This document shows, piece after piece, positions 4,603 to 61,332 of a DNA stretch of 64,000 nucleotides. The stretch lies in contig WHVD01000001.1 in NCBI GenBank assembly GCA_015178975.1, positions 1,240,001 through 1,304,000 on the forward strand, written 5' to 3'. Each line of letters begins with the position of its first letter. The first letter of the stretch is position 1. Below the pieces are notes generated by a model. It ran no database searches and had not been told where the DNA came from. It saw only the letters and a program-made list of their open reading frames with translations. The position numbers and the translations under genes were made by a program. This DNA is from Hysterangium stoloniferum (Eukaryota; Basidiomycota; Agaricomycetes; Hysterangiales; Hysterangiaceae).

Positions 4603-5338
4603 TGTTAAGAACTGAAAACTGACTAATGTCAGTGGCCGACAGGGACCGATCGGAAGGACTTGGCTTCAGCTTATGTGCTGCGCCCTCGCAAATATCTGTA
4701 GGGTGTCCTTAAATTTCGGGTGGGCGAAGACTAATCCTAAAGAACTCCTTTCGGTGAGATACTGATCGGAACTGAAGGACAAGTCGAGTGTCGGGCCAAG
4801 GGGTCGGGGCCGGGAGTGGGTGAGCGCACGCGAAGGTGGATGAGGGGATTCTTAGTCTGAGACTGTTACAGATGTATGAGGGTATTCTGAGTCGATATTC
4901 TGATTGCCTAGTAACTACAACTACAGTGGGTTCATATATAAGTAACAGGCATCTAGAAAATACTAACGGGGGGAAAGGCAGAAAATGGTATTAACAATAA
5001 GCTTGACTAGGAACAGGAAGTTTATGATTAGTTCAGAGGCTGATGATAACCGAGAGCGGAATTACTGTAAAAGGAAATAGTTCGAGGACTACAAATATAG
5101 ATAGACATATGTGAAACATAGGATAGAACAGATCATCATAATAAAAGGGACGTATCAAAAGTTTAACCAGACAATACGAGTATTTTGACGTGGGCGTAAA
5201 CGGAGTTTGATCATCGCGAAAGCATACGTCAGCTTCAAGGGCTGATGGTTTCCGATGTGGTGACTTGGATAGTAACTCGAATTGTTGATAAGTGGCGATA
5301 ACCTCGGTGGCCAATAGGGTTGCGACACGGTCATAACA
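4603..5338 (-). repeat. Solo LTR, family A, second insertion, opposite orientation
   Basis: Ends are TGTTAAGAAC...CATAACA (minus sense), with 5-bp duplications ATCCA at 4598-4602 and 5339-5343. The left duplication overlaps the right duplication of the neighbouring LTR, so this copy landed at the border of the first. The conserved module is at 4656-4708. It is 736 bp long, close to copies at 51978-52715. Confidence 0.88.
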
Positions 5339-5909
5339 ATCCATCTCCCCAGAGTATAAAGTTCCTTCATGTATGCTACAGTTTGTTCAATTCAAATATC
5401 AACTTAGATTACCCCCTTTTAGTTCTCAAGTCCTATTACTCCTATCTAATACTCTCAAAGGCATCTTTGGCAAGCTGTGACCCCTTACCTCACAACTATT
5501 AGTAATTCAACCTCCCAGCCAATTGAGCTAAGTGTTGATCTTCATTTCCTATTGTACATACTATCCACTCTGTTTGAAATACCAGAGCACATTAACAGTT
5601 CATACAAGGGTACAACACATATGTTGAAGCCAAGCTCCACTACATTTATAGAGTCAGACCTCCCAACTAGTACAATCTCTACAGTCAGCTCCCTGATTGA
5701 CCCAGTTACCATCATCAGCTTCCCAACCAGAGCCTCCCCTTCCCCTTTCAGGCTTAGATCTTAATATAACCAAGGATTTTTCATAAGGAAGAGAAAAGAC
5801 TTTATTATTCTAGGTGTAAAAGATGAAGGTATAATTGACTTAGAGGAGTAACACTAAATGCATGGAGAGGTAATGCAACCCTCAGTCTGTGCAGAGTCTG
5901 GAGGGATGC

Positions 5910-6078
5910 TTACTCTTTTTTTGGCTCAGAAACTGGTTTCTCCTTTGATGTTGAAGTTGTGGAAGAAGTGGTGGCTGCAAAAGCTTTGGAAGCATTGGAT
6001 TTCACTACCAGGCATTCCAGGACACAATGACTAGGTTTTCTGTACAAAAGACAAAGGTTATTGTCCATGCAATGTTGT
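5910..6078 (-). pseudogene. Gag-like fragment with damaged zinc knuckle, split by nested LTRs
   Basis: Minus-strand frame reads QHCMDNNLCLLYRKPSHCVLEC and then a Ser/Thr/Lys tail ending at a stop (5910). The CCHC knuckle is damaged because its second Cys is Tyr. The upstream residues continue on the far side of the LTR nest at 8281-8330 (SMQAPQERQ joins QHCMDN in frame once the LTR and one GTTGT duplication are removed), so the LTR family C copy inserted into this gag. The likely host is a gypsy-type element in minus orientation. Confidence 0.6.
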
Positions 6079-6526
6079 TGACATGAATTGAATTTCTTTC
6101 GATTAAGTTGGATAATAATCATAATATATTCTACAAAACCAAATACAGAACCCTTGTTCAATGAAGTATAGATTCACCCTGTTGATAAAGTGACAGGCTA
6201 ATACCAGTTGTGAAGGCTCACAGATGTTAGTGTCAAAGGGTTTCGACAATCATGTAAGATGAGATTGAGAGTAGATTAATAATACAGATAACTAATATAC
6301 AATGGAGAGATTTTCTGACTGAGGTCCTTCACTCTTCTCATTGCCCATTTATGCCTTTCTTCATTAAACTATGATTAAACTATGACCTATGAATGAAATC
6401 ATATGTATATGATGTCGAAATGAGACAAGTCAAATATAAGTTGAATGTTCATCAAATGGATTCAATGGTGTCGAAGATGTCAAATAGAATGTCAAGTTGG
6501 AGTTTTTGTCCAAAGACATGTCAAAG

Positions 6527-8166
6527 TGTTATGACCTGTTCCTGGATGTTTCAATATCCGACTTCCAACTTCCGACTTCCGACTTCTGACTATGGAGCAT
6601 CTTAGTTACCACATCTTCCATAATCTTCCCTTGTTCCACATTTGGTAATTTGTCCATTAACAAGTATTCACCCGTTTGTTTATTATATTCCTGTTTCAGA
6701 ATAATGTCTCCCCAATTCATCTTATTGTATTCCCATTTTGGAATACTCCCGTTTCCATCTTATTGTAGTCTTAGTTTGTAGTACAATAATAAGAAGACTT
6801 ATGTATGTATATTAGTTTCTGCGAATTTGTACTTTACTTTAGATCTGATATCGACTTAGTTTCTTATTCCCTCTTCTGTCTTTCTGTACACTCAATATTT
6901 GGAACTCTTTGGAACTCTGAATATCTGTTAAGTTGCCGAACAAAACTCCACGGATAGTCCCACGGAGGTTTCTCCAGTAACTATATTTTGAACACACACT
7001 TTCCGGGTAATAGTCCCACGGACTCCCCAGGTAATAGGTCCGGGGAGTTTCCGGGAATGTTAGTAGTACAAGGGAGTGTTGTATCAGAATAGTTACCAGA
7101 GAATGGGTACAACTGAGATGGACTTGGCTTCAGCTTATAGGCTGCGCCCTCGTACACTCATTCGGGCGTCCATATTTCAAACTGACAGAATGCATGCAAG
7201 GAGATGTAGATTCTGGAGTTCCCATGGGAGTTCCGGGAATCGAGCGTGCAGACAGACAAGAGGACAGGGGACTGGATCGAAGGGAAACTTGTTCAAGTGT
7301 CAAACTTGTTCGGGGGAAAACTAGTTCGAGATTGAAACTGGATTCTAAGTACATGAATATAGCGGGCTTATATAGACTGTGAAATGTAATAATACCAAAT
7401 CTGGTATTAATGAGAGGCAGAACTATTAAACATAAAACGAAACAAGTAAATACTAAACTGGGAATTAGGGACGGAACGGAACGGGAGCAGAGAACGAATC
7501 ATGACAGATCATTTAACCATAACTGGAGCGGGGCTCAGTTAGAGGGGTTCCGGAAGTCCGGTCGGAGTCCGGTGACTTGGTGCACAAGATAGTGTCGGGT
7601 ATAGACAGGCTTGATGTGCAGGAGGTCCGGCGGAGTCCGGTGGGTTTTCCAATGACTGGTGTGTGAGACGCAGAGACAGGTCATAACAGGAGCGGGGTTC
7701 TATGCTCTGTTAGAGGGGTTCCAGGAGTCCGGTCGGAGTCCGGTGACTGGTACATAAGACACAGTGTCGGGTGTATGTCAGGTGGAGTCCGGAGTCTGGA
7801 GGAGTCCGAGGATTGGTGTATGAGACACAGAGGGTTAGGTGTGGACAGGTGGGTGCGTGCAGAGAGTCAGGCATAAACAAGTTGAATGCAGGCTCCAGCG
7901 GGAACTCCGGTTGTAACTATACAATATAGAGGGTCGGGAGCATGTAGGACGGGGTCCGGGGGCCCGGAGGCCGGCGGGTTTTCCGGTTCCTGACAATATC
8001 TGTATCTTCCAGTGTAAGTCCCACCTTTGAAATTAAGGACTTCTGAGCATTTGCATAGAGGTGCAGCACATAAGCTGAAGCCAACATCCTGACCCTATCT
8101 GATAGTTTCTAAATTCCCAGTGACTTTCCAATAGTTCCAGAATAAGTTCTGACATGGCACTTAACA
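6527..8166 (+). repeat. LTR family G, middle shell of the nest
   Basis: Ends are TGTTATGACC...CTTAACA with CAAAG duplicated at 6522-6526 and 8167-8171. Without the inner LTR it is about 565 bp. A run of CGACTTC-like repeats lies at 6558-6592. The conserved hairpin module is at 8037-8089 near its 3' end, as in families A, D and E, although the rest of the LTR differs. Confidence 0.8.
6926..7995 (-). repeat. LTR-like family D, innermost insertion
   Basis: It is 1,070 bp, GC-richer than its surroundings, with ends TGTTAAG...TGACA and exact ATATC duplications at 6921-6925 and 7996-8000. The other copy is 60278-61332 in the opposite orientation. A TATA-like segment (minus strand, near 7372) and the module at 7120-7171 are present. 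Many GGAGTCCGG-type short motifs recur at 7550-7970. No coding region is credible. Confidence 0.85.
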
Positions 8167-9498: not shown

Positions 9499-11051
9499 TT
9501 ATCCATTACACCACGACACCCCAAACCGATCCTGCGCAACTCCCGGGAATCCATCGCCTTCACCCCCATCCGCACCGTCGATGAAGCCCACGCCGTAGCT
9601 ACCCTCAGCGGTAATGCCCACTTGAGGACAGCGCCATCCAAACAACGGCGGACACGCGCGGTCGACCGCATGGCATGTCTCCAAACACGGTAATAGCTCG
9701 CTATACCTCACGGTGCTGTTTATGTTGTTATTGCGCGATGGTGTCGTGATTATAGCGGGTCTGGGCTGCGTGATGTTGGCATGGGGGACGGCAAGGGCCG
9801 GGGGAACTTCGCCACAACGGGGGAGCGAGACAGCGCAGGCCCACGTACGGTACGCGATGGAGCAGGACTGGCATGTTTGCAGGGGAGAATACGAGTCGCG
9901 GCCACAAGGAAACGTGAGGAGGGCTGTAGTAAAGTTGGAGAGGATCGAGATGAGGGGGGAGGTGATTGAAGGCGGCAGATTCGAAGCTGTGTAGGTTGTA
10001 CCACCATCTGCGGGAGGAGGGAGCGGGACAGCATAGGCCGTGGACGGGCAGAAGGGCAATGAGTGGGCCAGGTGACACGAGAATGATGCTGGGAAACGAC
10101 AATCACGGTTAGATGCAATAAAGAAGGATGGAGGACGACCACTCACAGGACTTGGTGAACACAAATATCGGACCGGCAACAGCACCTCCATCCTGGATAA
10201 CCCAAGCGGTATAATTGGTATTTGATGTTAATCCCTCCACGAGCCATTGCGTTCGCCATCCCTGGCCCTCACTAATATCTCGTAATACAACGCTCGAAGT
10301 CACGTTAACGCCTGACGTCCCGTTGAGACCGATTACCGACCCAGATACACCGCGAGCCGTTTCACGAATTGCACATGCAGATAATGATAGTTTGAAGCCA
10401 GGTTGTTCTTGTATTTGTGTCGTGGGAGACAAGACAAGCGTGAAATTAGGTTGGGAAGAAGCAGGCGGCGGCGGTGGTAGCGTAAGATTACCTGAAGGAA
10501 GTGTATAATTTGGATATGACGGTTGAGGCATAAGTGGCGGTAGGTATGGCGGTGAGAATAGGAGTGCTTGAGTTGCAGTCGTGTCACCCAAAACAGGAAA
10601 CGTCGTTAGATTTCGATGTAAAGGATCTGTCGAACAAGTGTCAGACCAAATGACTCCATATTGAAATAACCTGTTTGAGTCACATACCACCACTTGAAAC
10701 CCCAACTTCAACTGGCCATGTTCCACTACTACTGGTCCCGGCGCCCAAGGAAATCTGCAACTTCGTCCCTCCACCACTCCATGTCCCAATACCTTCCACA
10801 AGCTCTATCTGTTCACCACCGCCATCCAACGCTCCTGTCACGATAAAATTCGGAAAGGGCTGATTTGCACTACAAACTGCAACAGAAACCTGTAGATGAG
10901 TTGTATCTGGGAGATCCAACGCAATAGACGGCGACGAAGCATTCAGAGTTAAAGGAAGGATAACATTCAGTAAAAGTTGTTGCGCTTGACCTAGAGACAG
11001 AAGAGAAAGAGCAAGAAGTGGTACAGGAAGTGTAACAGACTTGAAAACCAT
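9499..11051 (-). CDS. MID1: MID1-like stretch-activated calcium channel regulatory subunit
   Basis: Three exons on the minus strand: 11051-10688, 10626-10147 and 10088-9499, with GT-AG introns of 61 and 58 nt; 477 residues. The N-terminus MVFKSVTLPVPLLALSLLSL is a signal peptide. The middle is rich in NxT/S sites with a Pro-rich linker. The C-terminal part has the family's Cys pattern: LPFCPSTAYAVP, NFTTALLTFPCGRD, YSPLQTC, CSIAYRTWAC, YSELLPCLETC, AVDRACPP, YGVGFIDG and a WCNG end. Mid1 acts with the Cch1 channel in calcium influx at the plasma membrane of fungi; that role is family knowledge. Length is near the usual 500-600. The gene is the left edge of the transposon-poor block and diverges from the nucleoside hydrolase with about 570 bp between starts. 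Confidence 0.9.
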
Positions 11052-11618: not shown

Positions 11619-13136
11619 ATGCATTGCTTGGCTTCAGTCATCTTGCTGTTCTCGGCTTGTCGATTCACCGTTACCGGCATACCCCAATCTTGTGATCTTT
11701 TTATCCGTTGCATTAATTATCTACTGATGTTTATATGTTTATTTTCCATATCACTGGCATTGAATAGATTCGGCAGATTCCAAAAATGTTGAACCCAAGT
11801 ATATTATTCTTGATACAGATTTCTTGAGTTGTGATTACTTTTCCTGACACACAACCTTGCTTCTGACTGATTTAAATCTCAACAGTCACTGACGATGGTA
11901 AGAAGGGGCACCTGGACAAGTCCTGGTTTTATTTTTACTTAATTGTCCTGCGACCAGTTGGTGCTCTTGCCCTGCTTAACACCTTTCAATACTGCGGCAA
12001 AGTGCGTCTCCTTGGAATAGTCTCGGGTCTGTCCCCAAATTGTCAAAAATTATCTACATTATCAAACAATATCCCTCAGATGTTAGAAGCCGGTACGCTG
12101 TGCCAGCCATGGATGCCATCAACACATGGTACTGCCATCCAGATATCCCATTCGGCCAAAATCAACCAGTTACCAATATAACAGCAGAGCCCGGGACCAA
12201 CCCAATTGAAGACCCGGTCTATGTAAAAACCCTTGCTGATCCCTCTCGTTTCCCAGAAGATATCCACGACGGCTCCAACAAAACTATTCATCGCCCTGTT
12301 GAGTTATACCACAGCCTTCTATCCAATGCCAAAGATCAGAGCGTCACCATACTTGCAATTGGATTTATGAGCAATCTCGCTGCGTTTTACAGTTCCCCAG
12401 GTGGGAGAGAGCTTATCTCAAAGAAGGTCAAAGAGCTCGTCGTCCAAGGGGGAGATTTCGGACCAAGAGGCCCGGATGGTGGTCCCAACGGCGCGAATTA
12501 TAACCTGGGTAAGATAACAATATCTCTCCACGCGCCCTCGATCAACAGTCTCGATAAACGTCAGGGAATGATTTAACTGCCGCAAAAGTCCTCCAGACAT
12601 GGCCCTCACCAGTGACATTTCTCGGAGTAGAAGTCGGGGGCGCCGTTCTGACGGGAAAAATCCTCCAGGAAACTCCCGTTGATAACCCTGTTCGCGTCGG
12701 TGAGTCTTTAGCTACTACCAGCATGGTGCATCGCCTGAATTGACGGCATTATTGCAGCCTACGAAATTTACAATAATGGTACCGATGTGGAGAATAAATC
12801 GTGGGATCTCGTGACTGCCTACTTTGCAGTATTGGGGCTTGAGGAGGGCTCTTTGCGATATGGAAATGGGGACCGGGGCGGAAGAATTGAGATATACCCG
12901 AATGGTACGGCGGCTTGGAATTACAGTGCCTCTGTGCCCTTCACGAGAAGGCAACATTTCTTAGAGTGAGTATTTCGAAAGTATCGCGTCACTCACACTC
13001 ATCCCAGGCTGGATGGATTATTCCCTTGTTTAGCTTCAGGGAAACCAACGTCACTGTGGCGCGTAAAATCGACGCATTACTTGCAACATTTGGTAGTCAA
13101 AAGCCACCCTGTCCAACTTCGCAATATATATCTTAG
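11619..13136 (+). CDS. Secreted inosine-uridine-type nucleoside hydrolase
   Basis: Eight exons: 11619-11691, 11777-11827, 11886-11897, 11958-12026, 12080-12508, 12589-12699, 12758-12965, 13040-13136; 1,050 nt, 349 residues. The N-terminus MHCLASVILLFSACRF is a signal peptide. IILDTDFLITDDVGAL is the calcium/ribose-binding DTDxxxxDD signature, with the DD encoded by a 12-nt exon. MSNLAAF, VVQGGDF and VTFLGVEVG match other conserved IU-NH strands, and VARKIDALL the C-terminal helix. The family cleaves the N-glycosidic bond of nucleosides, giving base and ribose; here probably outside the cell or in the secretory route. The 5' splice sites GTTGTG (intron 2) and GTCTGT (intron 4) are weak but frame and family similarity require them. 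Confidence 0.85.
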
Positions 13137-28917: not shown

Positions 28918-30141
28918 GCTTGCGGATGTCGGTGCCCTTAGGGAGCCTACTGGCAAGCTAAAGAAGAGGGTATAGGCCTGACGCATGCTGCATCATCCTA
29001 AATTTACAAAAGTAATATTACAGGCATTGTTACCGGCGTGTAAACCCCTTCATACCCGGTTTTGGTGCAGCATGAGAAATGTGAAATGGAATGCGAGAAT
29101 CCACAGATAAGGTATTCATCACTAGAGGCGATAGGATCAGGGATAGATATTGGAAATTGAGGGTGGCCATATTATGCACGATAATGCATATCGTATAGAA
29201 AGGGGCTCACAGTAGCTGACAATTAAAGATATGGACTCAAACGCTTCCAATCAATAGTGGCATCATTTTCATCCATTACCAATTCTTAATATAATATCAC
29301 AAACAAGGACAAGCAGTTACATGACAGACAGCGACAGATGAGGGGAATTGAAGGGAATCGTCGAATGAATGACGTCGCTATTCGGCGATCTGTCCAATCA
29401 CCCGATAAAATCAACTGAGCACACTTCACAGTGTCAGCGTCTCATGCAATTTATTTTTAGGGGTTTGAGTTCTCAACCATTTTTAAATAATTTTTCTGGC
29501 AAATATCCTCTGCTGTCAATCACTGGCACACTTACAACGTGACCATTTTGATTAAACAGGGCTAGGCAAGATTGTTTGTATACCTTTTGCTACCCACTTC
29601 GTCCTTAGGCTTCAAATTTAAAAAAAAATTCGCACTCACACTTGTTTACAATATAAGACATTTATAATGAAATACTTGACACTCGCTCTAGCAGTCTCTG
29701 GAGGTATGAAGGGGTGGGTTTACAATGCAATAATTTATTGATATTTGCGTTGGATTCATTTACTGCATTATCCTTGAGGTCACCCTCACTGCAACGTATT
29801 CGAGTTCATCCACGACAGGCTGAAGTCCCCTCTCATTGAGAGGGGAATGAGGCTCTCAAGTTAGTAAATTCAGTAAATTCATAGACACGGTATCTTCAGC
29901 GGCTCAATGTTCAACCTATTCAGTGTCAAGCGCAGTGTGCACCTGTCTTAGGCAATGAATTAGATTCGAAATATGATCTAGCAAATTCTGAACAATAAAT
30001 CCTTATATCCAAGAGTTGCGCAAGCACTGATAACGCATACATATGCAAAGCGCAGGTCGCTCAAGATTATCGGACTTGCATCGATTGTATTTCAGGTCTT
30101 GCAGCTACTGAGCCTAGTATTAGAACGATTGTCTGGGCAGC
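28918..30141 (+). repeat. Segmental duplication, left copy
   Basis: About 1.2 kb that matches 37573-38821 at high but imperfect identity with small indels, starting at GATGTCGGTGC and ending at GATTGTC. The two copies lie in the same orientation on either side of the ABC transporter gene. The left copy contains the pseudogene listed next. Confidence 0.85.
29667..30141 (+). pseudogene. Dead copy of the Cys-rich GPI-type gene
   Basis: ATG at 29667 with MKYLTLALAVSG, then the same intron and coding stretch as 38343-38827, but with an insertion of an inverted CTCATTGAGAG segment near 29835, an altered exon 2 border, and loss of everything after the duplication end (no Ser/Thr/Gly-rich tail or GPI signal). 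It cannot encode the full protein. Confidence 0.75.
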
Positions 30142-31090
30142 ACATAGAATTTTGAAATCTCCAGGGAGTGAGATGGATCAAAACAGTTTCTATGACCTAG
30201 TTACACTAAATAGGTAGCATGTGGTGTATCTCTCAGCATGTTGGACTACCTGAGATGGACATTGAAGGCAGCAGCCGAGTTGCGCGGGAACATTAGATGA
30301 GGCGCCCATTTCTACAGCGTAGACTTCATCCATAGAGTTGCCGAGGATGTATACAATCTATTGTGCGTCTATCCAGGGAAACCTATGGCATTTGAAACAC
30401 TCTGATTTATAGGCCCCTTTGTTTGTTGTGTAGGCAATGTAAGTAGTTCATTATAGTGATAACAACTCAATAATAACCTGAACTTCTCCCGCTCGTGTCC
30501 ACCGTGTATCGGTGCATCCGCCACTCACTGCGGCATCACATAATGTTTTGAAAGGCGTTTTCATGGTATTCAGAGTCGGAAGTCCAGTCTTTATGCTGTG
30601 GTATCCTGAATTATATAACGGCTCATTGAGACTAAGTCTAAGTATAAACTTTCATCTTCCAGTTGATCCTTTAATTAGTCCCTAATACACACAGTAAGTA
30701 AGGGATAGGGTACATTGCGCGAACCAAAGTCGAAAATTTCCAAAGACTTAGAGTTCCAACATTACCGCCGCCGTTCGACGTGATATCATCGTTGGGAAGT
30801 ATCATACTTTTTCTGACTTAAAGTAGTATAACTATATTTGGGGTTCCTTCAGGCAGTCAAGACAGGCTATTCAATCACCAGGACGTCCGCGCCCATAATA
30901 CTCTTTATTACAACCGATCCCGAACTTATTTCTATAGGTTAATCGGAGGATGAAATTCGAGTCCTTCCCGGTTTGACACCTGGATCCGCCGGGGAACTTT
31001 TGAAGTTCTGTAAGATGAACGTTTGTTCATCACGGAGAGCCGTAGATATAAAGAGTGAGCTGCATTTTTTTTCCATAACGACCACCACTC
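30142..31090. other. Intergenic upstream of the ABC transporter
   Basis: About 950 bp; no repeat or gene identified. Confidence 0.3.
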
Positions 31091-37572: not shown

Positions 37573-38821
37573 GAGCTTGCAGATGTCGGTGCCCTTAGGG
37601 AGCTTACCGGCAGGATAAAAGAAAGGGGTATGGGCCTGATGCGTATTGCAACATGCTAAATCTACAAAAATAATATTACAGGCATTTTTACCGGCCTGTA
37701 AACCACTTCATACCCGGTTTTGGTGCAGCGTGAGAGATGCGAAACGGAACGCGAGAATGCGTAGATAAGGTATTCCTCACTGGAGGTAATAGGATCAGAT
37801 AGATATTGGAAATTGAGGGTAGCCATAGTATGCACGCACGACAATGCATATCGTATAGAAAGAAGGTTCACAGTAGCTGAGAATTAAAGACACGGACCCA
37901 AACGCTCGCTGTCCAATCAATAGTGGCATCATTTACATCCATCACTAATTCTTAATATAAGATCACAAACAAGGACAAGCAGTTACATGACAGACAGCGA
38001 CAGATGAGGGGAATTGAAGGCAATCGTCGAATGGATTAACGTCGCTATTCGGCGATCTGTCCAATCACCTGATGAAGTCAACTGAGCACACTTCACAGTG
38101 TCGGTGAGTTTCAAGTCTATGCAATTTATTGTTAGGGGGGTCTGGGTTCCAAACCATTTTTAGACAATTTTTCTGGCAAATATCCTTTGCTGTCAATCAC
38201 TGGTACTCTTACAACGTGACCATTTTGATTAAATAGGGCTAGGCAAGATTGTTTGTATACCTTTTGCTACCCACTTCGTCCTTAGGCTTCAAATTTTTAA
38301 AAATTTCGCATTCACACTCGTTTACAATATAAGACATTTATAATGAAATATTTGACACTCGCTCTAGCAGTTTCTGGAGGTATGAGGGGGTGGGCTCACG
38401 ATGCAACAATTTATTGATATTTGCCTTGGATTCATTTATAGCTGCTGCATTGTCCTTGAGGTCACCATCACTGCAACGTATTCGAATTCATTCACGACAG
38501 GCTGCAGTCCTAGACCCGGGTGAAGTCCCCTCTCAAGTCAGTAAATTTATAGACATGGTATTTTCAATGGCTCAATGTTCAACCTATTCAGTGTCAAACG
38601 CAGTGTGCACCTGTCTTAAGCGATACCCAGGTATGAATTGGACTCGGAATATGATCTAGCAAATTCTGAACAATCAATCCTTATATTCAAGAGTTGCGCA
38701 AGCACTGACAACGCATGCATATGCAAAGCGCAGGTCGCTCAAGATTATCAGACTTGCATCGATTGTATTTCAGGTCTTGCAGCCACTGACCCTAGTATTA
38801 CAACGATTGTCCGGGCAGCAG
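37573..38821 (+). repeat. Segmental duplication, right copy
   Basis: Partner of 28918-30141. It covers the promoter and first exons of the gene at 38343. Differences are scattered substitutions and small indels, so the duplication is not very recent. Confidence 0.85.
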
Positions 38822-43593: not shown

Positions 43594-46500
43594 TCATAGT
43601 TTGAGCTCGGTGAGGACACGGCGTGCGAGCATCTGATATTGCCAGCCATCACCACCTACGCGTCGGAACTGGATGCCATGGAAAGGAAGCCATGGAACCT
43701 AAGTTGCAAATATAGAATGTTATTCTTAGCTGAAGAGATACACGAGGCAGAGAAAATACCTTGACAATATTGATTTCAAATCGAACAGCCAAGCCATTTT
43801 GTAATGAGGCATTAAACGCGTCGTTATACGCCGCTTCCATAGATGGTGGTATCGAATCTTTTGCGTTAGAACTCTGGTTAGTGGGGGATATCGTCGCGAA
43901 ATCGCGAGGAATGGGTGGAAGATATTTCGCCCTGGCTGGGGAGCGTGGTCGTTGCCCATCCTCCGGTGACAAGTTAGTGTCTGATTCCTGCAGCAACAAA
44001 GACGGGGGCTCCGCTCCTTCGGCACTCGGGCGTTCGGGGACGCCAAGATGAGTATTGAAGAACGACGAGGAGCCGCTGCTGGCTGTCGCCGAAGGCCGAC
44101 CATGCACATGCTGCTCGCGTTCAGGCTCGCGCTCCTTGTCTTCAGAAGATTCTTTCTCCTTCCCTTTAAATCCGAGCCTGGAAGATTTACGGCCCATAGC
44201 ACGGCGGGTCGTGCCTTGCTGATACCGCTGTGTTTGCGCCTCAGTGAGGGTTGAGAGGTCGATCGATGGAAGGTGGATGCATTCAAAGCCTGTCTTTGTC
44301 TCCCGGAACTGCACTTGCATCCGTTCGAGAACTAGTCGGATGTCCCCTTTGATAGTAGACGGTGTTCTCGTGGATGTTGTAGCCACACTACCGAGTATCC
44401 CATATAAGCAAACAGACGCAGTGAGGGAGGGTAACAAGACTCACCTGAATAAACCCTTGAGGAAAACGGGTTTGAACTCCTTCTCATGGCCTTCCTCCTC
44501 CTTCCGCGTCTCCGGGTGCCCATTCACAATATGGCCCTGCTCATCCACACGTGGCGTCGACAGCCCCCCATCACGTTCATCCACTTTCGTGAAAAACCTC
44601 TCCACGTTTGACACACCCACGCTCGGGACACCACCGGCGCTACCAGGCGGCTTTGTCCGGCGACCAAGGGTATGGCCCATGAATGCAGACGCTCCAGTGC
44701 TGCTCCGCCGTTCATGCCTCGCAGCCCGTCCAGCCGGGTCCAGAATGGTTGCGGCCCGGCGATGCAAGGATCCCAGGGGCTGGCTGTGAGATTCCCGTAG
44801 GCTCTGTTCGGTCTTCGCATCGGGCGCTGCCGTGGAGTCGTTTTCTTTCTCCTTCTCTCCATCTCTCTCCCTTTCTTTCTCCTCCTTTTCATTATCGACG
44901 ACAATCCTCGGCGACATACTCAATATACTCGCCCTCTTCCCTGCCGATCGATGACCGTGATCCCTAGATCCCACAAGCAGACTCCCAAACTTCCTCGCGA
45001 GCGACACCGTGGGGCTCGTTGGCGGATGGTCAGGCAGCTCTTTCATATCATGCGCAGGCGCGCCATTCGTAGTCGTGACCGCGCCGTTCGTTTGCGCTGC
45101 CGTTGGAGTATCCACCTTCGTCGGAAACTCAGCACGCGGCGTGGCCTGCGATGGTGCCGGTGCCAGTGCTAGTGCCGGTTTCTCCTCTCTCGGGGCTGGC
45201 GCGGGCGCGGCCTGTTGTGGGATCCTGACAGCAGGATCCTCATTCTCCCTAAACGACGTCACATCTGCCGCTGCACTTTGCGGCACACCCGGCCAGCCCC
45301 TTCCGGCCGGCGGTCTCTGGCTGAGACTGTGGCTCCTCCGATGCGTCGACACAGGCGGCGCACGAGGCATCGTCATTGCCACAGGGGATGACGGGGCAGC
45401 CGGGGACGTTGGCATCGGCACCTGCAGTTCGTGTGCGCGTAGTTGGGGTTGAGGAGCGAATGAGGGAGTAACAGGAGATGGTGTGGCAACGGATGATGGT
45501 GCATCGTATGCCATGCCGGAGTAATGGGATGATTCAGGAGCTGGAAGTCGCGGGAGGGGCATGTTATAGTCAGCCTTCTTCTGCATAGATTCGGTGGAGG
45601 GGGGGCGGATCATGGGTTGTTTGAAGGACGGGGGAGGGAGGGATGTCGCTGTAGTTGTAGCTGATGGTGGATTGTATGCAGATGGGGGCGCCGAACCATC
45701 GAAATTTTCTGTGCCGGATGTTTTGTTTGGTATGTGAGAATTTAGAGAAAGTTGTGAAGATGCGAAATATCCTGGGCCGTACACACGTTCCCTTTCTTGT
45801 TTCTCACGGACGAGATAGTAGATTGAAATGAGGGGGTGGAAGCCTCGGGAGGGATCTAGGAGATTTCCATTATCAGCATTCTGCGCGGGCATTGTGCCGG
45901 AAATCACTGGAGACTTTGTGATCGGTGTATTGGGGGGCGATGAGTTTGGTGAAAACAACTTGCGGCGATAAAAATCAAAGCCAGAAAAGCGCTTCTTTGG
46001 CGTTGAGGGCGCTTTCTGCTCTTTCAGCCCGGTCGTGGAATCAAAAGAGAACGTGGATGAACCGCCGTTCAGCGTCATCCCCCCTCGGCGCTGACTCCAC
46101 GTAGCGACAGCGCGCACGTACAAGTCTGACTCGAGTATAGTCACAAGTCGGCGGTGTATCTCCTCAGGCGTCCCAAATTCGAACCCTGTCATGCCACGGA
46201 TGACCTGCGGATCGAGTTCGTCAGGCCGCAGCGGTTCTCGGTGCACGAGATGCGGATCGGGCGGACCAAAAAAGGAACGAATCATCCAGGGGTGATTGAG
46301 CACCTCGTTCAACGTCGCGCGCGACGCTGGATTTGTCACCAGCATCCGAGAAAGGAGGTGTTTGCATTCCGCACTAAGCCACACAGGGTATTCGACGAAA
46401 CCTCGTTTGATCTTGGCGTGTAATGCAGGCATAGATTGGTCATCGAAGGGGACCTTTCCGCAGACCAAGACGTAGAGCACGACCCCGAAGCTCCAAACAT

Positions 46501-47435
46501 CGACTTCAGGGCCGGTGTAGACCTTGGCGAGAAGAAGCTCCGGCGCAGCAAAATAAAGAGAACCGCAGAAGGTGGCGAGATGCGCAGAGGGATTATACAA
46601 ATTCGACAGGCCAAAATCGATGATTTTGATGTTCCCCGTGTGTGAAATTAGAATGTTTTCAATCTTAAGGTCTCGGTGGACAACGTTATTTCGGTGGCAG
46701 TATTCGAGAGCCGAACCGATCTGTCTTGCGAATTTGCGAGCCACACGCTCTCGCAGACGTCCATGGGATATTATGTAGTCGAGCATTTGACCGCCGTTAA
46801 CGTATTCAAATACCATGTAGTAGTGATGCTGGTGTACGATAAGTTCGCGCATTCCGCAAATGTATGGATGGTGCAATAGCAAACACAAGGAAGCTTCACG
46901 AATAGTGCGGATTTCTTTTGAAGCGTCCTTGCTCTGCTGCCTCGTAATGGCTTCTTGTGAGGCTCCTGCTGGCATGGGCGTAGGCTGTACCCGAGGTACT
47001 ATTTTGATAGCAAGCTATCGTACAAGCTTTTCATTCCTGAAAAGCATTGTTCATGGTATATTTACGCACCTTTTCCCCACTAACATTATGCTGAGCCAAC
47101 TTGACTTTTCCCATGCTGCCTTGACCGAGAGTCTTGCTGAGGGTGTAGTCACCCAGCACTTTGTTTGAACTTCGCCCCGTCTTTGTTGTTGATGGTGGGC
47201 GTGCTTCTTCGACAGAACGTCGAACAGCAGCTGGTTCTGGAGGTATTGGTTGTGGATTGAAAGCTTGAGGTGGCATCGAAACAGGCCTAGGACGGGTTGC
47301 ACGGGAGTCTACTGGGCGTGATACAGGCATGTCGAACTCGTGCCCAGCATCGTCAACACCCCCATGAGGTCCTGATGCTTCCTCTGGGACGCGGTTGAGA
47401 TGGCTCCCGGCCAGCGAGGTTTGATATGCACTCAT
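43594..47435 (-). CDS. KIN1: KIN1/PAR-1/MARK-type Ser/Thr kinase with KA1 domain
   Basis: Four exons on the minus strand: 47435-47070, 47014-44445, 44387-43760, 43698-43594; introns 55, 57 and 61 nt; 1,222 residues. A ~95-residue polar N-terminus precedes the kinase domain: [12 protein letters not shown] (Gly loop), LAIKIV (catalytic Lys), [34 protein letters not shown] and [10 protein letters not shown]. The long middle is Pro/Ser/Ala-rich and predicted disordered, then a charged Lys/Glu stretch ([14 protein letters not shown]). The C-terminus [20 protein letters not shown] with [15 protein letters not shown] is a KA1 domain, which binds acidic phospholipids. Kin1/Kin2 kinases act in polarity and exocytosis at the cell cortex. 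The 2,570-nt exon 2 is unusually long for this window. Confidence 0.93.
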
Positions 47436-48472: not shown

Positions 48473-49299
48473 TGTTACAACTGGAATTCCCACTGGACTC
48501 CAGGCACTAACTTATATGCACCCACACCCTATACGCACCAATTATCAGTTTACTAGAATTCCCACCAGACTCCGTACATCAGACTTGTCCACATTCGACT
48601 TCATTACGTTGTGTATCAGTCACTGGAATACCCGCCGGACTCCATCCCTGTCTATGTCCGACCTCATCCCATGCATCAGTCACTGGACTCTGCTTGGAAA
48701 ACCCGTCATCCCTCTAACTGAGCCCCATTCCCATTTTAGTCTAATGACCTTGGACTCCACTCCCGCTCCATTTCCCATTATGGTTTATGATTTGTCATGA
48801 TTTGGACTCCACTCCATTTTGTCCCGTTCCTAACACCAAATTTGGTGTTTACTTATACCATTTTATGTTTTGCTAGTTTTGTTTCATTATTACTGGATTT
48901 GGTATGTTATTCATTCCACAGTCTATATAGTCTGGCAGATGTTGTACATACAATCCAGTCAGAAAAGCAGCTTAGATTCTCCCCAGTAATCTAGTACATT
49001 TTCCACTCTAAACTCCTCTTTGAATTACACCACTCTCACTAGTTGGAGCCCACGGGCTCCAATGCATCTATCTCTTAACCTCCGACTTATTTATCTTGAC
49101 TCCCCGACCTCTCGACCCACAACCTCCGACCTACGACCCCTCAACCCATGAACTCTGCCTGGACTCCCCGGGTTTCCCATCCATCTGTTTGAAATTGGAC
49201 AACACGATCTCATGAGGGCCCAGCCTATAAGCTGAAGCCAAGTCCTACCAGAAATCCTGCGGGTTTCTCCGGAAACCCACTGTGTACGTACCCCTAACA
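48473..49299 (+). repeat. LTR family E, full copy
   Basis: TGTTACAACTGG...CCCTAACA, with a TATA-like TCTATATAGTC near 48922 and the conserved module at 49197-49245. Matching target duplications are not found (GCTAG left, CCCAC right), and related family E sequence begins directly after the right end, so the right flank was rearranged. Confidence 0.75.
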
Positions 49300-50795
49300 C
49301 CCACAGGCTCTGACCTATCTATCACTTAACCTCTGACCTACATATCTATCTTGACCCCTGACTCATCTCCACCCAACCCCTTGACTTCTATGGGAATCCT
49401 GCAGTCGATCCTCCAACCTCACAACCCACCAACTACCCCCAGACTCCCCAGGATTCCCATCCGCCCATCTGAATTTGGACAACACAATCTCACAAGGGCA
49501 TAGCCTATAAGCTGAAGCCAAGTCCTACCAGCTTTCCCATGGGTTTCTCTGGAAACCCTCTAATAAGCTCCACACATGCATCTTAACAGATTTCATTATT
49601 ACTGGATTTGGTATGGCATACATTCCACAGTCTATATAGTCTGGCAGATGTTGTACATACAATCCAGTCAGAAAATCAGCTTAGATTCTCCCCAGTAATC
49701 TCAGTACATTTTCCGCCCTAATCTCCTCTTTGAAACACACCATTATTTTACCTTGTCGGAGCCCATGGGCTCTGACCTATCTATTACTCAATGTTAAGGT
49801 GTGTACATGGAAGGTTTCCAGAGAAACCTGCGGGAAATCCAGTAGGACTTGGCTTCAGCTTATAGGCTTGCCCTTGCAGGATCATCTTGTCCAATTTCAA
49901 ATGGGCAGACAGGAATCCTGGGGAGTCTGGGCAGGGTTTGTGGGTTGAGAGGTCGGGGAGTCGAGATAGATAAGTCAGAAGTCAAGTGATAGATGGGTCG
50001 GAGCCTGTGGGCTCCGATGAGTAAGAGTGGTGTGTTTCAAAGAGGAATTTAGAGTGGAAAATATACTAAGATTACTGGGGAGAATCTAAGCTGATTTTCT
50101 GACTGGATTGTATGTACAACATCTGCCAGACTATATAGACTGTGGAATGAATAACATACCAAATCCAGTAATAATGAAAACTAAACTAACAAATATAAAA
50201 CGAGATAAATAAATACCAAACCTGGTGTTAGGAACAGGACGGAACAGAGTGGAGTCTGAATTGTGACAGGTCATTTGACTATAATGGGAATGGGGCTCAG
50301 TTAGAGGGCTGACGGGTTTTCTGAGTGGGGTCTGGTGACTGATGCGTGGGACAGGGTCAGAGATAGACAGGGATGGAGTGTGGCAGGTATTCCAGTGACT
50401 GTTACATGAAGTAATGAAGGTCAAATGTGGACAGGTCTGACGTACAGAGTCCAGTGGGTTTTCCAGTAAACTGATAATTGGTGTATATAGGGTGCAGGTG
50501 CATATATGTAAGTTAGTGCCCAGAGTCCGGCAGGAATTCCGGTTATAACACTTGACCTCCAACTCATCACCACCTGACCCCTTGACCTCCGCAGAATTCC
50601 CACAGTTGACTCCCTGACCTCTCAACCCACCAACTACTCCTGGACTCCCCAGGATTCCCATCTGCCCATCTGAAATTGGATGACACGATCTCATGAGGGC
50701 CAGCCTATAAGCTGAAGCCAAGTCCTACTGGCTTTCCCACGGGTTTCTCTGGAAACCCTCCAATAAGCTCCACGCATGCCTTTAACAGATAAATA
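49300..50795 (+). repeat. Array of truncated family E-variant LTRs
   Basis: Two head-truncated plus-sense pieces of a variant E LTR (49300-49590, ending CTTAACA, and 49591-49791 plus 50551-50795, ending TTTAACA). Each holds the module (49477-49525 and 50678-50725). The second piece is split by a minus-sense E copy. The tandem truncation pattern suggests repeated recombination between LTRs. Confidence 0.65.
49792..50550 (-). repeat. LTR family E copy inside the variant E piece
   Basis: Minus sense, TGTTATAACC at 50550 to the TGTTAAGG end at 49792, with module at 49845-49892 and TATA near 50138. Flanks CTCAA and CTTGA are only similar, and about 20 bp of the host LTR is missing at the site, so the duplication has decayed or a deletion went with the insertion. 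Confidence 0.7.
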
Positions 50796-50834: not shown

Positions 50835-51533
50835 AATGGGGGAAGGGGAAAAATCTAAGTCAGAAGGCTGATGATAGGAAATGGGTTAATCGGGGGGCTG
50901 ATGATAGAGATTGTACTAGTTGGGAGGTCTGATTCTATAAATGTAGTAGAACTTGGCTTCAACTTACGTGTTGTGCCCTCTGGTATTTCAAACAGCAGAT
51001 AGTATAATATATCTAAGTAAAGGTCAGTACTTAGCTCAATTGACTGGAGGGCCGAATTACTAAAAGTCAAAGAGTAAGGGGTCATGGCTTGCCAAAGACA
51101 CCTTCTGAGGGTTTAATGTCAAGAGGAAAAGGCTGGAAACTATGTAAGAGAGTGTAATTTAAGTCAATTTTTGAACTGAGGAACTGTAACATACATAAGA
51201 AGATCTTTATACTACATCAAGATGGATGATCGGAAGGCCAATCAGAGAAGCAAAGTGTCAAATGGATCAAGGGAAGTAGATGACAAGGTGGGAAACAATG
51301 GAAATTAATGTAAAGTACTGAAGAATAATATTAAAGGGTCTGAGGTGGCAAGTAAGGCATATACATGGGAATGGAGATGGGACAGAGTGCTAGAAAACTA
51401 GAACACAGTGTAAACAAATATCAGGGGTGCCATGAGTGATAATGATGTGGGCAGGGGTTCTGATAATAAGACAACAAGGTTTTCCTAGTTAAAGACAGGT
51501 TGTGGGGGTCCAAAATGATGGGAGCCTAATATA
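50835..51533 (-). repeat. LTR family B, uninterrupted copy
   Basis: Minus sense; it corresponds piece by piece to 3645-3974 plus 5339-5768, which proves where the family A LTRs inserted there. Carries the CAAC/GTTG form of the module at 50949-50985. No element interior remains. Confidence 0.75.
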
Positions 51534-51574
51534 CATAGCATGTCCTTTCCATGTCCAATATCCAAAAGCCACTA

Positions 51575-51691
51575 AGGAAACAACAGTCACAAAAGGAAAC
51601 AAAGGTCACAAAGGAAAACAATGCTCACAAAGGGAAACAAAGGTCACAAAGGGAAACAATGGTGACAAAAGGAAACAACAATCACAAAAGG
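51575..51691. repeat. Minisatellite, left part
   Basis: Imperfect 19-bp units close to ACAAAAGGAAACAACAGTG. It continues at 52716 after an LTR insertion, with AAAGG duplicated at the break. Confidence 0.8.
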
Positions 51692-52715
51692 TGTTAAGAA
51701 CTGAAAAACTGACTAATGTCGGTAGGCCAATGGGGACCGATCAGAAGGACTTGGCTTCAGCTTATGTGCTGCGCCCTTGCAAGTAGCCATTGGGTGTCCT
51801 TAAATTTTGGGCGGGCAAAAACTAGTCCTAACGAGTTCCTCACAGTGAGTTGCTGATTGGGACCAAAGGATAAGTCGAGTGTCGGGCCAAGGGGTCAGGG
51901 ACTGAGAGTGGGCAAGTGCATGCAAAGGCAGAAAGTGGGATACTTAGAGTAAGACTTCTAGAGATGTATGTGGGTGTTGTTAAGAACTGAAAACTGACTA
52001 ATGTCGGTAGGCCAATGGGGACCGATTGGAAGGACTTGGCTTCAGCTTATATGCTGCGCCCTCGCAAATAACTGTCAGGTGTCCTTAAATTTTGGACGGG
52101 CGAAGACTAGTCCTAATGAGTACCTCACAGTAAGTTACCGATTGGGACCAAAGGATAAGTCGAGTGTCAGGCCAGGGTCGGGGACTGAGAGTGGGTGAGT
52201 ACACATGAAGGTGGAGAGTGGGATACTTAGAGTAAGACTGCTAGATATGTATGTGGGTGTTCTGAGTTGATATTCTGATTGCCTAGTAACTACAACTACA
52301 GTGGGTTCATATACAAGTTATTGGTGTCTAGAAAATACTAACTAAGGAAAGAGCAGAAACATTATTTGACAAATAAACTTCACTAGGAATGGGAAGGTTA
52401 TGATAAGTTCGGACGCCATGAATTAACTGAGAGCGGGATTAGGAGAAAAGGAAATAGTCTGAGGGTTACAAGTATACATATATAGGCATATGTGAAACAT
52501 AGAGTAGAATGGATCATCATAATAAAAAGGGATGTATCAGAGTATAACCAGATAGTATGAGTTGATGGGGGTGTAAACGGTGTTTGATCACCATGAAAGC
52601 ATACATCAGCGTCAGGAGACCGATGGTTTCCGATGCGATGACTTGATTGATAACTTGAAATGTCAATAGGCGGCAATAACCTCGGGGACCACCAGGTTGT
52701 GACATGGTCATAACA
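51692..52715 (-). repeat. Chimeric family A LTR: 286-bp head joined to a full LTR
   Basis: Positions 51692-51977 equal the first ~286 bp of an A LTR (seen from its TGTTAAGAAC end); then a complete A LTR runs 51978-52715. The whole is flanked by AAAGG at 51687-51691 and 52716-52720. So an LTR inserted in the minisatellite and later gained and lost a nested element by recombination. Modules at 51747-51799 and 52032-52084. Confidence 0.8.
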
Positions 52716-53035
52716 AAAGGAAACACTGGTTACAAAAAGAAACAATGGTGACAAAAGGAAAGAAAGGTGACAAAAAGAAACAATAGTGACAAAAGGAAAC
52801 AACAGTGACAAAAGGAAACAACAGTGACAAAAGGAAACAACAGTGACAAAAGGAAACAACAGTGACAAAAGGAACAATGGTTACAAAGGGAGCAACAGTT
52901 ACCAAAGGAGCAATGGTTTCAAAAGAAGCAATGGTTTCAAAGAAGGAAACATCTCAAAAAAAGCAACCATTTCAAAAGGAGCAGCCATCTTAAAAAAAGC
53001 AATCATTTCAAAAGGAGCAACCATTTCAACAGAGG
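52716..53035. repeat. Minisatellite, right part (19-bp units)
   Basis: At least six near-perfect 19-bp units ACAAAAGGAAACAACAGTG, decaying to the right into GTTTCAAAAGAAGCAATG-like units. As 19 is not a multiple of 3, the minus-strand open frame across it (FPFVTVVSFCHCCFLLSLL, 19 residues per three units) is an artefact. Confidence 0.88.
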
Positions 53036-53039
53036 CCAC

Positions 53040-54077: not shown

Positions 54078-54085
54078 ATTCTGGC

Positions 54086-57690: not shown

Positions 57691-58021
57691 GGCCAACATG
57701 CCCTATTTTGCCCAGCTTATACTTACTGAACCCACTGTGAACAACAAGAGCTTCGGGATCAGAAGGTGCTGACTAAGGTGGAGACAAGGCACCTACTTCA
57801 GATAACATACTACCTACTCATCTGCTTGAGTAGAATCTTTTTGGTTGGTCTATTGATGGCAGTTTGTGTTTGAACTGCATATACAGTACATCATTTTCTG
57901 CATCTATACATGTCTGCAGCTCATGGAAAGAATACAAGGCCACCTTCCATAAGGGGGCAAGGTTTACCTCCTGCTATCCTAAGGTGATTGACTCCTCTAG
58001 TGGAAGAGCAGTGTCACCCTC

Positions 58022-58521: not shown

Positions 58522-58532
58522 CCCTTGCTACC

Positions 58533-59772
58533 TGTTACGACCAGAATTCCTGCCGGACTTTGGGCACTAACTTATACGCACCCACACTGTCACAACCATC
58601 ACATGTCACATATCATCACAAACATTCAAAGGTAATATTCAACAACTCTTTGACCTATCAAACTTAACTCGACAAAACTGAACATTAATCGACACCATCG
58701 AATCTCTTTTGACATGTCTCATTTCGACGTCATATATGATTTCATAATTAGTTCATAACATAGTCATAATGATACGACGAAAGCATAAAAGGGCTATGAA
58801 AGGAGTGAGGGAAGTCAGTCGAAATATCTGTATATTAGTGATATTAGTAATCTACTTTGTCGTAACTTCTTTGACAAATACTTCCGTGAGTTCTCATGAC
58901 TAGAAATAGCCTCTAACTTCATCGACAGGGCGAATATATACTTCGTTGAACGAGGCTTTCGAGTTCGATTAATAGAATATTATTCGACTTTATCGAAGAA
59001 TAATCGATTCATGACACACACCCTATATGCACTGATTGTCAGTTTACCAGAATTCCCACCAGACTCCATATGTCAGACTCGTCCATGTTCAACTTCGTTA
59101 CATCGTGTATCAGTCACCGGAATACCCACTGGACTCCGTCCCTGTCTATGTCCAACCTCATCCTATGTGTCACTCACCGGACCCCACTCGGAAAACCCAT
59201 CATCCTTCTAACTGAGCCCCATTCCCATTTTAGTCAAATGACCTGTCACGATTCGGACTCGGCTCCCGCTCCATTTCCATTATGGTTTATGATTTGTCAC
59301 GATTCAGACTCCGCTCCATTCTGTCCCATTCCTAACACCAAATTTGGTGTGTTTTGCTAGTTTCGTTTCATCATTACTGGATTTGGTATGTTATTCATTC
59401 CACGGTCTATATAGTCTGGCAGATGTTGTACATACAATCCAGTCAGAAAATTGGCTTAGATTCCCCCCAGTAATCTAATACATTTTCTGCTCTAAACTCC
59501 TCCTTGAATTACACCACTCTCGCTAGTCAGAGCTCACAGGCTCTGATGCATCTATCTCTCTTATTTATCCTGACTCCCCAACCTCTCAACCCATGACCTC
59601 TGACCCACGACCCCTTGATCCACGAACCCCACCCGGACTCCCCAGGATTCCCATCTGCCTGTCTGAAATTGGACAACACGATCTTGTGAGGGTGCAGCCT
59701 ATAAGCTGAAGCCAAGTCCTACCGGATATCCCATGGGTTTCTCTGGAAACCCGCTGTGTATGTACCCTAACA
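58533..59772 (+). repeat. LTR family E in the DIRS-like element
   Basis: TGTTACGACC...CCCTAACA, flanks CTACC (58528-58532) and CTGCC (59773-59777), one mismatch. Interrupted by an LTR C at 58588-59016. Module at 59671-59719. Confidence 0.75.
58588..59016 (+). repeat. Solo LTR family C nested in LTR E
   Basis: TGTCACAACC...CATGACA with exact CACAC duplications at 58583-58587 and 59017-59021; removing it restores the E sequence seen at 48520-48540. 429 bp. Confidence 0.88.
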
Positions 59773-60277
59773 CTGCCTGTAGGGAGGGGACTTGCGAATA
59801 TCAAGGAGGCACTGGTTGCCAAGACCTTTAACTCTGTCAAAAGCCTCTTTAATGCAATGTGGGATGGTATTGTCAGAGCAAACGATGAAAAGTGGGACAG
59901 AAACAACATCTCGGCCTCACAGAGAGCAGAGGAAAGGTCAGATGTGGATGCCGATGAGGTGTTGGAGGCTGTGCCTTCCAAAGGAGCTTTGTGTAGTGTG
60001 GTTATGCCCACAGTAGACAACAGGGGAATGAGTATAGAAATGGGGCAGGACCCACCTGAAGTATTGTTGGCATTGGCTAATGCCTTTTCTTCACCATCCA
60101 GTAAATATCAAGTGGTAGATTAATTTGAAAGCACCTCCAATTTATGACTTCAATGAAATCTGGCATAATAAGTTGGAATTGGATCTTGCATCCATTCCCA
60201 ACCAGATTTTACATATGGCTTTCAAGAAGGTATATATTCCTTTGGCTATGTTGACTATCAAGTCCTTGCAGTGGGTT

Positions 60278-61332
60278 TGTCAGGAACTGGACAACCCGCC
60301 GGCCTCCGGGCCCCCGGACCCCATCCTGCATGCTCCCGACCCTCTATATTGTATAGTAACAACCGGAGTTCCCACGGGAGCTTGCATGTCAACTTGTTTA
60401 TGCCTGACTCTCTGTACGCACCCCACCTGTCTGCACCTAACCCTCTATGTCTCATACACCAGTCCTCGGACTCCCCGGACTCCGGACTCCACTCTATGTA
60501 CACCCGACACTCTGTGTCTTATGTACCAGTCACCAGACTCCGACCGGACTCCTGGAACCCCTCTAACAGAGCATAGAACCCTGCTCCTGTTATCTGTCTC
60601 TGCGTCTCACACACCAGTCATTGGAAAACCCACCGGATCCACCGGACCTCCTGCACATCAAGCCTGTCTATACCCGACACTATCCTGTGCACCAAGTCAC
60701 CGGACTCTGACCGGACTTCCGGAACCCCTCTAACTGAGCCCCGCTCCAGTTATGGTTAAATGATCTGTCATGATTCGTTCTCCACTCCCGTTCCGTTCCG
60801 TCCCTAATTCCCAGTTTAGTATTTACCTGTTTTGTTTTATGTTTAATAGTTCTGCCTCTCATTAATACCGGATTTGGTATTATTACATTTCACAGTCTAT
60901 ATAAGTCTGCTATGTTCATGTACTTAGAATCCAGTTTCAATCTCGAACTAGTTTTCCCCCGAACAAGTTTGATCCTTGAACAGTCTCTAGTCCTCTTGTC
61001 TGTCTGCACACTCGATTCCCGGAACTCCCACGGGAACTCCGGAATCTATATCTTTCTGTATGCATTCTGTCAGCTCGAAATATGGACACCCGAATGAGTG
61101 TACGAGGGCGCAGCCTATAAGCTGAAGCCAAGTCCATCTCAGTCGTATCACCAGACTTTCTGGTAATTATTCTGATATCACTGTTCCTTGTACTAATAAT
61201 CCCCGGAACTTTCCTGGGACCTATTACCCGGGGACTCCGTGGGACTATTTCCCGGAAGCAAGTGTGTGTTCGGAATAGTTACCGGAAACCTCTGCGGGAC
61301 TATCCGTGGAGCGTGTGTTCGGGAACTTAACA
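60278..61332 (+). repeat. LTR-like family D in the DIRS-like element
   Basis: TGTCAGGAAC...CTTAACA, exact GGGTT duplications at 60273-60277 and 61333-61337. Same family as 6926-7995, opposite orientation. TATA-like TCTATATAAGTC near 60896, module at 61084-61135. Its removal joins LTIKSLQWV to HGNVDLKYTRIS in frame. Confidence 0.9.

Follow-up and report, generated by a model that had tools for sequence, protein, structure and literature searches.

The 64,000-nucleotide stretch of the Hysterangium stoloniferum genome considered here (assembly GCA_015178975.1, contig WHVD01000001.1, positions 1,240,001 to 1,304,000; hereafter the window) carries many copies of a short module located in the long terminal repeats (LTRs) of several retrotransposon families, designated A, B, D, E, and G. 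Judging from sequence comparisons, this module probably serves, in cis, as an RNA docking element during the self-priming of reverse transcription, and it is situated in the leader of a Tf1-type clade of Ty3/gypsy elements. An initial annotation of the window had proposed a packaging, translation, or reverse-transcription signal, and it is the last of these options that agrees with the reading we favor.

Anatomy and abundance of the module

All 14 module sites listed in the initial annotation are present in the window sequence. Scanning the window with a 27-nucleotide (nt) core at up to 6 mismatches recovered 13 of the 14, together with one unrelated match at 11627, while the degenerate site at 4510-4540 was not recovered at this threshold. 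In the whole genome (111 Mb, 554 contigs), the pattern CANCN6GNTGAAGCCAAG (22 places, 14 fixed bases) has 7,983 matches (4,030 + 3,953), a density of about 72 per Mb, against a single match for the reversed control. The module is a real element. The core pattern had 0 and 0 matches in virus and prokaryote contig collections, as expected for such collections, and the module was seen by eye at 0 of 20 copia reverse transcriptase (RT) loci, which were not checked for reaching an LTR.

Module anatomy was derived from 27 hand-registered modules, taken from the window and from fetched loci and covering the lineages A, B, D, E, G, H, I, and J. The closing stem P1 consists of GGAC/GTCC (GAGC/GCTC in B) and is extended by one or two outer pairs in many of the 27 rows. 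In the families compared, P1 is preceded by a GAAAT-like motif whose end is 1-4 nt away; some A copies have AAAAT instead. A segment of 16-20 nt lies between the 5' strand of P1 and the hairpin P2, in which GGC pairs back to the GCC of AAGCC (P2a), so that the hairpin as a whole reads GGC-N-CAGC-N6-GCTG-AA-GCC, with CAGC/GCTG as P2b. From the end of the module to the end of the LTR there are 51-194 nt. The inner CCC/GGG pair reported earlier for A and D is seen in these two families, but it is not a common feature of the modules. For family B, the site placed at 5608-5637 exists but comprises only the 3' half of a module whose full extent is 5585-5637; the two-sided change of its hairpin stem to CAAC/GTTG was confirmed, and the closing stem GAGC/GCTC adds two further two-sided changes. 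No match to Rfam 15 was obtained in the window at gathering scores, and one D LTR compared with Rfam at E<=10 gave a single unrelated match of 12.3 bits. In the five leaders searched, no long-range partner of at least 6 nt was found for the hairpin loop.

Predicted self-priming in module-bearing families

In Tf1 and Tf2, as in the Tf1/sushi group, the first 11 nt of the transcript are complementary to the primer-binding site (PBS), according to the parts of two reports drawn on here (PMC7175516, PMC10085805). A full-length A element at 25-33 kb of C1 possesses two LTRs of 722 base pairs (bp), 96.3% identical over the matched stretch, is flanked on either side by the 5-bp target duplication AAACC, and has a purine tract ahead of its 3' LTR. 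No PBS of tRNA type was seen in it by eye, and an exact 11-nt complement of LTR sequence located 33 nt after the TATA box is found 2 nt past the LTR, with the gag start codon about 25 nt after this PBS. When 56 distinct module sites were scanned, a complement at exactly +2 was encountered in six, namely in A, in B, and twice in E (11 nt each), in one more E copy (9 nt), and in J (15 nt, an 11-nt transcript start being assumed). Four matches had another geometry (L008, L010, L020, and one in the window), and there were none at the other 46 sites, as expected of solo or 3' LTRs (not checked individually).

The D primer was predicted from an alignment with E and the G primer from TATA spacing, and complements were then sought behind the LTR end. 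The predicted G PBS has 309 matches vs. 1 in the control, the predicted D PBS 64 vs. 0, and the B PBS 38 vs. 5, with 13 of the B matches lacking any mismatch. The D site is also that of another family, S: among its 64 matches, 34 have a GA dinucleotide (S-type), 29 have GT (D-type), and one has GC, and the 17 matches without mismatch divide into 14 GT and 3 GA. Four of these loci were read, two of which (L086 and L089) are D elements with the module and two (L087 and L088) S elements. In A, B, D, E, G, and S, 30-35 nt separate TATA from the primer. With the transcript start placed by TATA spacing, A, B, D, E, G, and J appear to employ self-priming of the Tf1 type, and the module occupies the leader between primer and PBS. 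For family H, a search for primer and docking sequences with up to 2 mismatches yielded seven near-matches, none of them exact and six with the predicted PBS; most read CTTGCAGA after the PBS, an E-like form.

The docking strand co-varies with post-PBS sequence

In the Tf1 pretzel, as described in the part of PMC10085805 drawn on here, the primer:PBS duplex is accompanied by two duplexes formed by PBS-adjacent sequence with LTR sequence downstream of the primer. In a search for pretzel-like partners, the post-PBS sequence repeatedly matched the module segment between P1 and P2. This segment, described in the initial annotation as a variable 15-25 nt, is no free spacer; it co-varies with the sequence just after the PBS. 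For six families (A, B, D, E, G, and J), docking within the same copy gave an energy sum of -87.3 compared with a permutation mean of -57.5, and 2 of 720 assignments were as good (1 of 120 without J). In a second version the docking strand of A was taken from its other LTR (L006) and that of B from another copy (L037); here the sum was -91.8 vs. -59.9, and 1 of 720 family permutations was as good.

In this sister-copy version all six families employ one register, in which pairing begins at post-PBS position 4-6 and, on the module side, stops at the P2 hairpin or one base inside it. The duplexes comprise 14 bp in D, 13 in G, 12 in E, 11 in both B and J, and 9 in A, those of D and E having one bulged base each after the first five pairs. 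In the same-copy version, leader windows of the same size outside the module never did as well in A (0/186), B (0/216), D (0/287), E (0/217), or G (0/141). In the sister-copy version, out of 2000 shuffled post-PBS sequences, those as good as the real one numbered 0 for G, 2 for E, 5 for D, 30 for A, 106 for J, and 160 for B. An earlier test with a longer segment gave 1/120 for two sets of copies. Taken at the level of sequence, these results argue for a pretzel-type duplex downstream of the PBS, most weakly for B and J. As the pairing of docking strand and post-PBS sequence crosses the primer:PBS duplex, it would constitute a pseudoknot, and for this reason ordinary folding cannot show it.

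Co-variation and folding of the stems

Two-sided changes occur at 5 of the 13 pairs in the 27 modules, i.e., at P1.2 (A-T/G-C), P1.3 (G-C/A-T), P1.5 (A-T/T-A/G-C), P1.6 (A-T/T-A), and P2b.3 (G-C/A-T). If 3' strands are permuted among one representative each of A, D, E, B, G, and H, 12 of 720 arrangements pair as well, and with eight representatives a fraction of 0.03 of 5000 permutations is as good. The 12 window sites alone show 3 pairs with two-sided changes, compared with 0.3 in shuffles. The earlier description of a structured element with compensatory changes in the transcribed R/U5 part of the LTR is supported by these data. At the third P2b pair of the 27 modules, the only standard pairs seen are G-C and A-T, and further two-sided P2b changes (CAYC/GRTG and TAGC/GCTA) had 0 matches each. 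Because most loci were found with a pattern that fixes the GCTGAAGCCAAG side, invariance on that side is partly due to selection of the loci. By eye, module copies in the window and in L001-L091 seem to differ largely by C-to-T/G-to-A changes at CpG sites, which suggests decay by CpG methylation, and co-variation tests must therefore allow for such decay.

Ordinary folding was applied to six module-bearing leaders, two of them from E, and gave 0.94-0.99 for P2b in five of the six and 0.01-0.86 for P2a. The primer:PBS duplex reached 0.91-0.97 in 7/7 leaders, again including two from E.

Relatedness of the families

The initial annotation regarded the LTR families as unrelated. Those that can be compared turn out to be related self-priming Ty3/gypsy lineages, the Gags of A, E, and G being homologous. 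Gag open reading frames (ORFs) found 3' of the 5' LTRs of these three families are 49-62% identical over their common parts and match Retrotrans_gag, and the Gag of J (L027) is 45% identical to that of A. A Tf2-like Ty3/gypsy pol was seen in G, in L033, and in L053, while for A, E, and J relatedness is indicated by Gag homology only. The pol of the G element encodes RT, RNase H, integrase, and a Tf2-type SH3 domain, the G PBS sites lie about 2.9 kb before RNase H matches, and the pol pieces read end in the SH3 domain. For D, no Gag-like match was detected within 1.5 kb of the PBS, and this family keeps primer, PBS, and module. Comparing DNA after the LTR between D and S (L086 vs. L087) gave no match. 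A broken RT fragment at 1370-2282 (+) of the window consists of pieces with 52-67% protein identity to the G element pol.

When the leaders of A, B, D, E, and G were compared, leaving out their first 28 nt, the module was alike in 10/10 family pairs. The leader upstream of the module was alike in 2/10 (D-E and D-G, p<0.05), the other 8/10 behaving as random sequence, and the leader downstream of it in 0/10 at p<0.05. The earlier statement that the LTRs differ outside the module holds for the transcribed leader, but D and E have U3/promoter blocks in common. The counter-reading named in the same annotation, one LTR family with neutral change, is borne out with respect to common descent, whereas the module has been kept where the leader has drifted past alignment. 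In the first 28 nt of the A, B, D, E, and G leaders (L005, L089, L011, and L090), a motif that reads roughly YGRCTTAGATTNCCCCC directly follows the primer; it beats random sequence (p<0.05) in 5/10 family pairs and sits at the expected primer cut site.

Module copies and other features of the window

The module copies in the window and the features belonging to them are as follows.

61084..61135 (+): module D, the clearest copy
61082-61087 ATGGAC and 61132-61137 GTCCAT (+): P1 strands of this D module
61092-61106 (+): its docking segment, GAATGAGTGTACGAG; docking partner after the PBS seen in L086/L089
61107-61109 GGC with 61127-61129 GCC (+): its P2a
61111-61114 CAGC with 61121-61124 GCTG (+): its P2b; loop 61115-61120 CTATAA
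60933..60943 (+): D self-primer copy AGTTTCAATCT without mismatch, the predicted 11-nt start of the transcript
60898-60903 (+): TATA of the same D LTR, whose end was called at 61332
7120..7171 (-): module D
7329..7339 (-): D self-primer copy, 0 mismatches
4656..4708 (-): module A
4895..4905 (-): A self-primer copy AATCAGAATAT, 0 mismatches; TATA-like sequence at 4935-4940
4510..4540 (+): degenerate module piece, assigned to A in the initial annotation
51747..51799 (-): module A, no primer copy found upstream
52032..52084 (-): module A
52270..52280 (-): A self-primer copy, 0 mismatches
5585..5637 (+): module B, full extent, P1 GAGC/GCTC and P2b CAAC/GTTG; primer-like copy with 2 mismatches at 5389-5399
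50949..50985 (-): module B without the 5' strand of P1; primer-like copy with 2 mismatches at 51167-51177
8037..8089 (+): module G; U3/R part absent, an oppositely oriented D LTR lying upstream
49197..49245 (+): module E; primer copy with 1 mismatch at 48957-48967, TATA at 48924-48929, LTR end called at 49299
49477..49525 (+): module E, no primer copy found upstream
49845..49892 (-): module E; primer copy AGTCAGAAAAT, 0 mismatches, at 50094-50104
50678..50725 (+): module E, no primer copy found upstream
59671..59719 (+): module E; primer copy, 0 mismatches, at 59441-59451, TATA at 59408-59413

Exact primer copies thus lie upstream of the A modules at 4656 and 52032, of both D modules, and of the E modules at 49845 and 59671. 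A scan for the PBS behind the window copies found none, which suggests that these are solo LTRs or broken ones. Two of the A LTRs are flanked by two blocks of a 19-nt tandem repeat (CAAAAGGAAACAACAGTGA-like), located at 51536-51729 and 52660-52929. Outside the window, a young-looking E LTR occupies positions 1-286 of L051 and L054, at the same point in two near-identical copies of a further Tf2-like element; since this LTR is absent from sister copies, the pair was probably copied after the LTR had inserted.

Host sequence in the window includes a gene, lying in two frames, for a stretch-activated Ca2+ channel subunit of the Mid1 type (9502-10801, -) and an 856-aa protein kinase ORF (44444-47011, -). 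Direct repeats at 28960-30142 and 37618-38820, about 8.67 kb apart at nearly constant spacing and 86-95% identical, are a segmental or gene duplication.

Proposed role and alternative explanations

For the docking element that we propose, the following sequence of events can be envisaged. The first 11 nt of the transcript would fold back onto the PBS located 2 nt after the 5' LTR. The module, built from the closing stem P1, a family-specific docking strand, and the nearly invariant hairpin, would pair through its docking strand with bases from 4-6 nt past the PBS onwards, as co-variation between families suggests, and the resulting pseudoknot might set the hairpin beside the primer:PBS helix. 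By analogy with Tf1, the RT/RNase H or the Gag of the element may then recognize the hairpin, and the 11-nt primer would be cut off between nt 11 and 12, allowing minus-strand synthesis to start. The features seen in the sequence that speak for such a course are the self-primer, the PBS, the position of the module between them, the co-variation of docking strands, and the retention of the whole arrangement by D.

Several observations weigh against this proposal. The docking idea arose from the same data with which it was evaluated. J fails the window control, 25.5% of its 94 windows being as good, and the shuffle counts for B, J, and A are not negligible. Docking within the same copy of B comprises 8 bp in another register that starts further from the PBS, and the common register is obtained only with the L037 strand. 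With the longer segment of the earlier test, 17.9% of 84 windows equaled L016, a decayed E copy that thus failed this control, and for A's own copy 13% of 300 shuffles did as well as the real sequence. For the second Tf1-like duplex, which would lie on the LTR side of the PBS, 171/720 permutations between families were as good, so that this comparison lends it no support; a 10-bp candidate exists in one D copy, and pairings exist in S. P1.5 and P1.6 are unpaired in 10/27 modules each. Nine isolated modules have folding z-scores of -1.8 to +0.8, and thermodynamics alone would not have revealed the module. For P1, values from ordinary folding do not exceed 0.09 in the six module-bearing leaders, so that it is co-variation that speaks for its formation in the leader, and P2b has a value of 0.01 in the leader of B. 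Finally, family S (L087 and L088, at about locus position 1506) has the 11-nt self-primer of D, but its leader measures only 126-127 nt and does not contain the module. Judged by sequence, S self-primes without it, so that self-priming as such does not depend on the module. At L033, which has an S-type PBS about 3.1-3.4 kb away, pol is only about 40% identical to the G pol, and the module looks like the solution of one clade and not like a universal need.

Among alternative explanations, a packaging or dimerization signal survives best, although we consider it unlikely. In that case, Gag or its nucleocapsid would bind the hairpin in order to select genomic RNA, and docking would only shape the leader. 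The module does accompany related Gags (A, E, G, and J), it is absent from the self-priming S, and its retention by D is as expected if D RNA is packaged in trans. However, in six families the docking strand runs up to the hairpin and pairs immediately next to the PBS, an arrangement suggestive of primer placement. Packaging and priming roles are not exclusive.

It is less probable still that the module acts at the DNA level, as a transcription-factor site or promoter part, or that it is slowly changing homologous LTR sequence without any role as RNA. The families are related by descent, many copy differences look by eye like CpG-type transitions, which are able to mimic compensatory changes, and the unpaired state of P1.5 and P1.6 in 10/27 modules each would fit such an explanation as well. 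Nevertheless, the module has been kept while the rest of the leader is mostly unalignable, P1.5 shows A-T, T-A, and G-C pairs that CpG decay alone does not make, and docking co-varies with sequence outside the LTR.

An element for translation, export, or stability of the leader, such as a ribosome entry site or an ENE-like triple helix, seems quite improbable. A location in the 5' leader ahead of gag, whose start in A follows the PBS so closely, would suit it, but there is no Rfam match in the window or in the one D LTR compared, the module is without the U-rich internal loop of ENE elements, and such a function gives no reason for pairing with post-PBS sequence. The undescribed ribozyme considered in the initial annotation is the least credible option, since, compact as the module is, with highly conserved unpaired bases (GAAAT, AA, and AA before the 3' strand of P1) and a variable arm, no Rfam ribozyme class matches the window or the one D LTR compared, no catalytic core known to us was recognized, docking explains the variable arm, and cleavage in the leader would presumably destroy the template.

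Comparison with known systems

Lin and Levin are said to have found in 1998 that Tf1 requires a structure similar to the retroviral U5-IR stem-loop. The docking element would resemble the U5-IR stem-loop in being an RNA structure of the leader, close to the PBS, on which the start of reverse transcription depends, but it differs in that it ends well before the LTR does and would reach the PBS region by long-range pairing. With Tf1 and Tf2 it shares the 11-nt self-primer and duplexes between PBS-adjacent and LTR sequence, and the SH3 domain of the G pol is of the Tf2 type. In the descriptions of Tf1 drawn on here, the further duplexes appear as pairings only, whereas in H. stoloniferum one partner belongs to a module of conserved sequence that also comprises a closing stem and a hairpin of almost fixed sequence and that recurs in several families; a second further duplex, as in Tf1, is not supported across families here.

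A survey of LTRs by hidden Markov models describes conserved LTR parts and relates residual conservation in long R regions to stem-loops, and the portion of it drawn on here deals with general LTR parts and mentions no such module (PMC3601003). A comparable module is likewise not described in the parts drawn on of open-access full texts, including PMC4600332, PMC3601003, PMC6317226, PMC7175516, PMC10085805, and PMC3248453, a scope to which older Tf1 papers do not belong. Within that literature, the Tf1/sushi group is known to self-prime and to have a pretzel-like leader, and no module that is conserved in sequence and carries a swappable docking strand came to light, which does not imply its absence from print.

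Significance for the retroelements of Hysterangium

A more far-reaching interpretation, which we put forward tentatively and hold to be rather less likely than the docking function itself, is that the leader works as lock and key. One nearly invariant hairpin would be read by the reverse transcription machinery of the whole clade, and an exchangeable docking strand would evolve together with the post-PBS sequence, each RNA folding only onto itself. Non-autonomous families such as D might then exploit this machinery, having retained the hairpin together with a docking pair of their own, and the module might represent a new class of priming RNA, beyond another pretzel.

To our knowledge, the building of a self-primer by retroelement RNA is known in detail for essentially one element, Tf1. 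In H. stoloniferum, about six natural families appear to solve one folding problem with different sequences around a nearly fixed hairpin, in thousands of copies, and this diversity lets the fold of the leader be derived by co-variation and tested directly. More generally, what looks like free spacer within a conserved LTR motif can turn out to be one strand of a long-range pairing whose partner strand lies outside the LTR.

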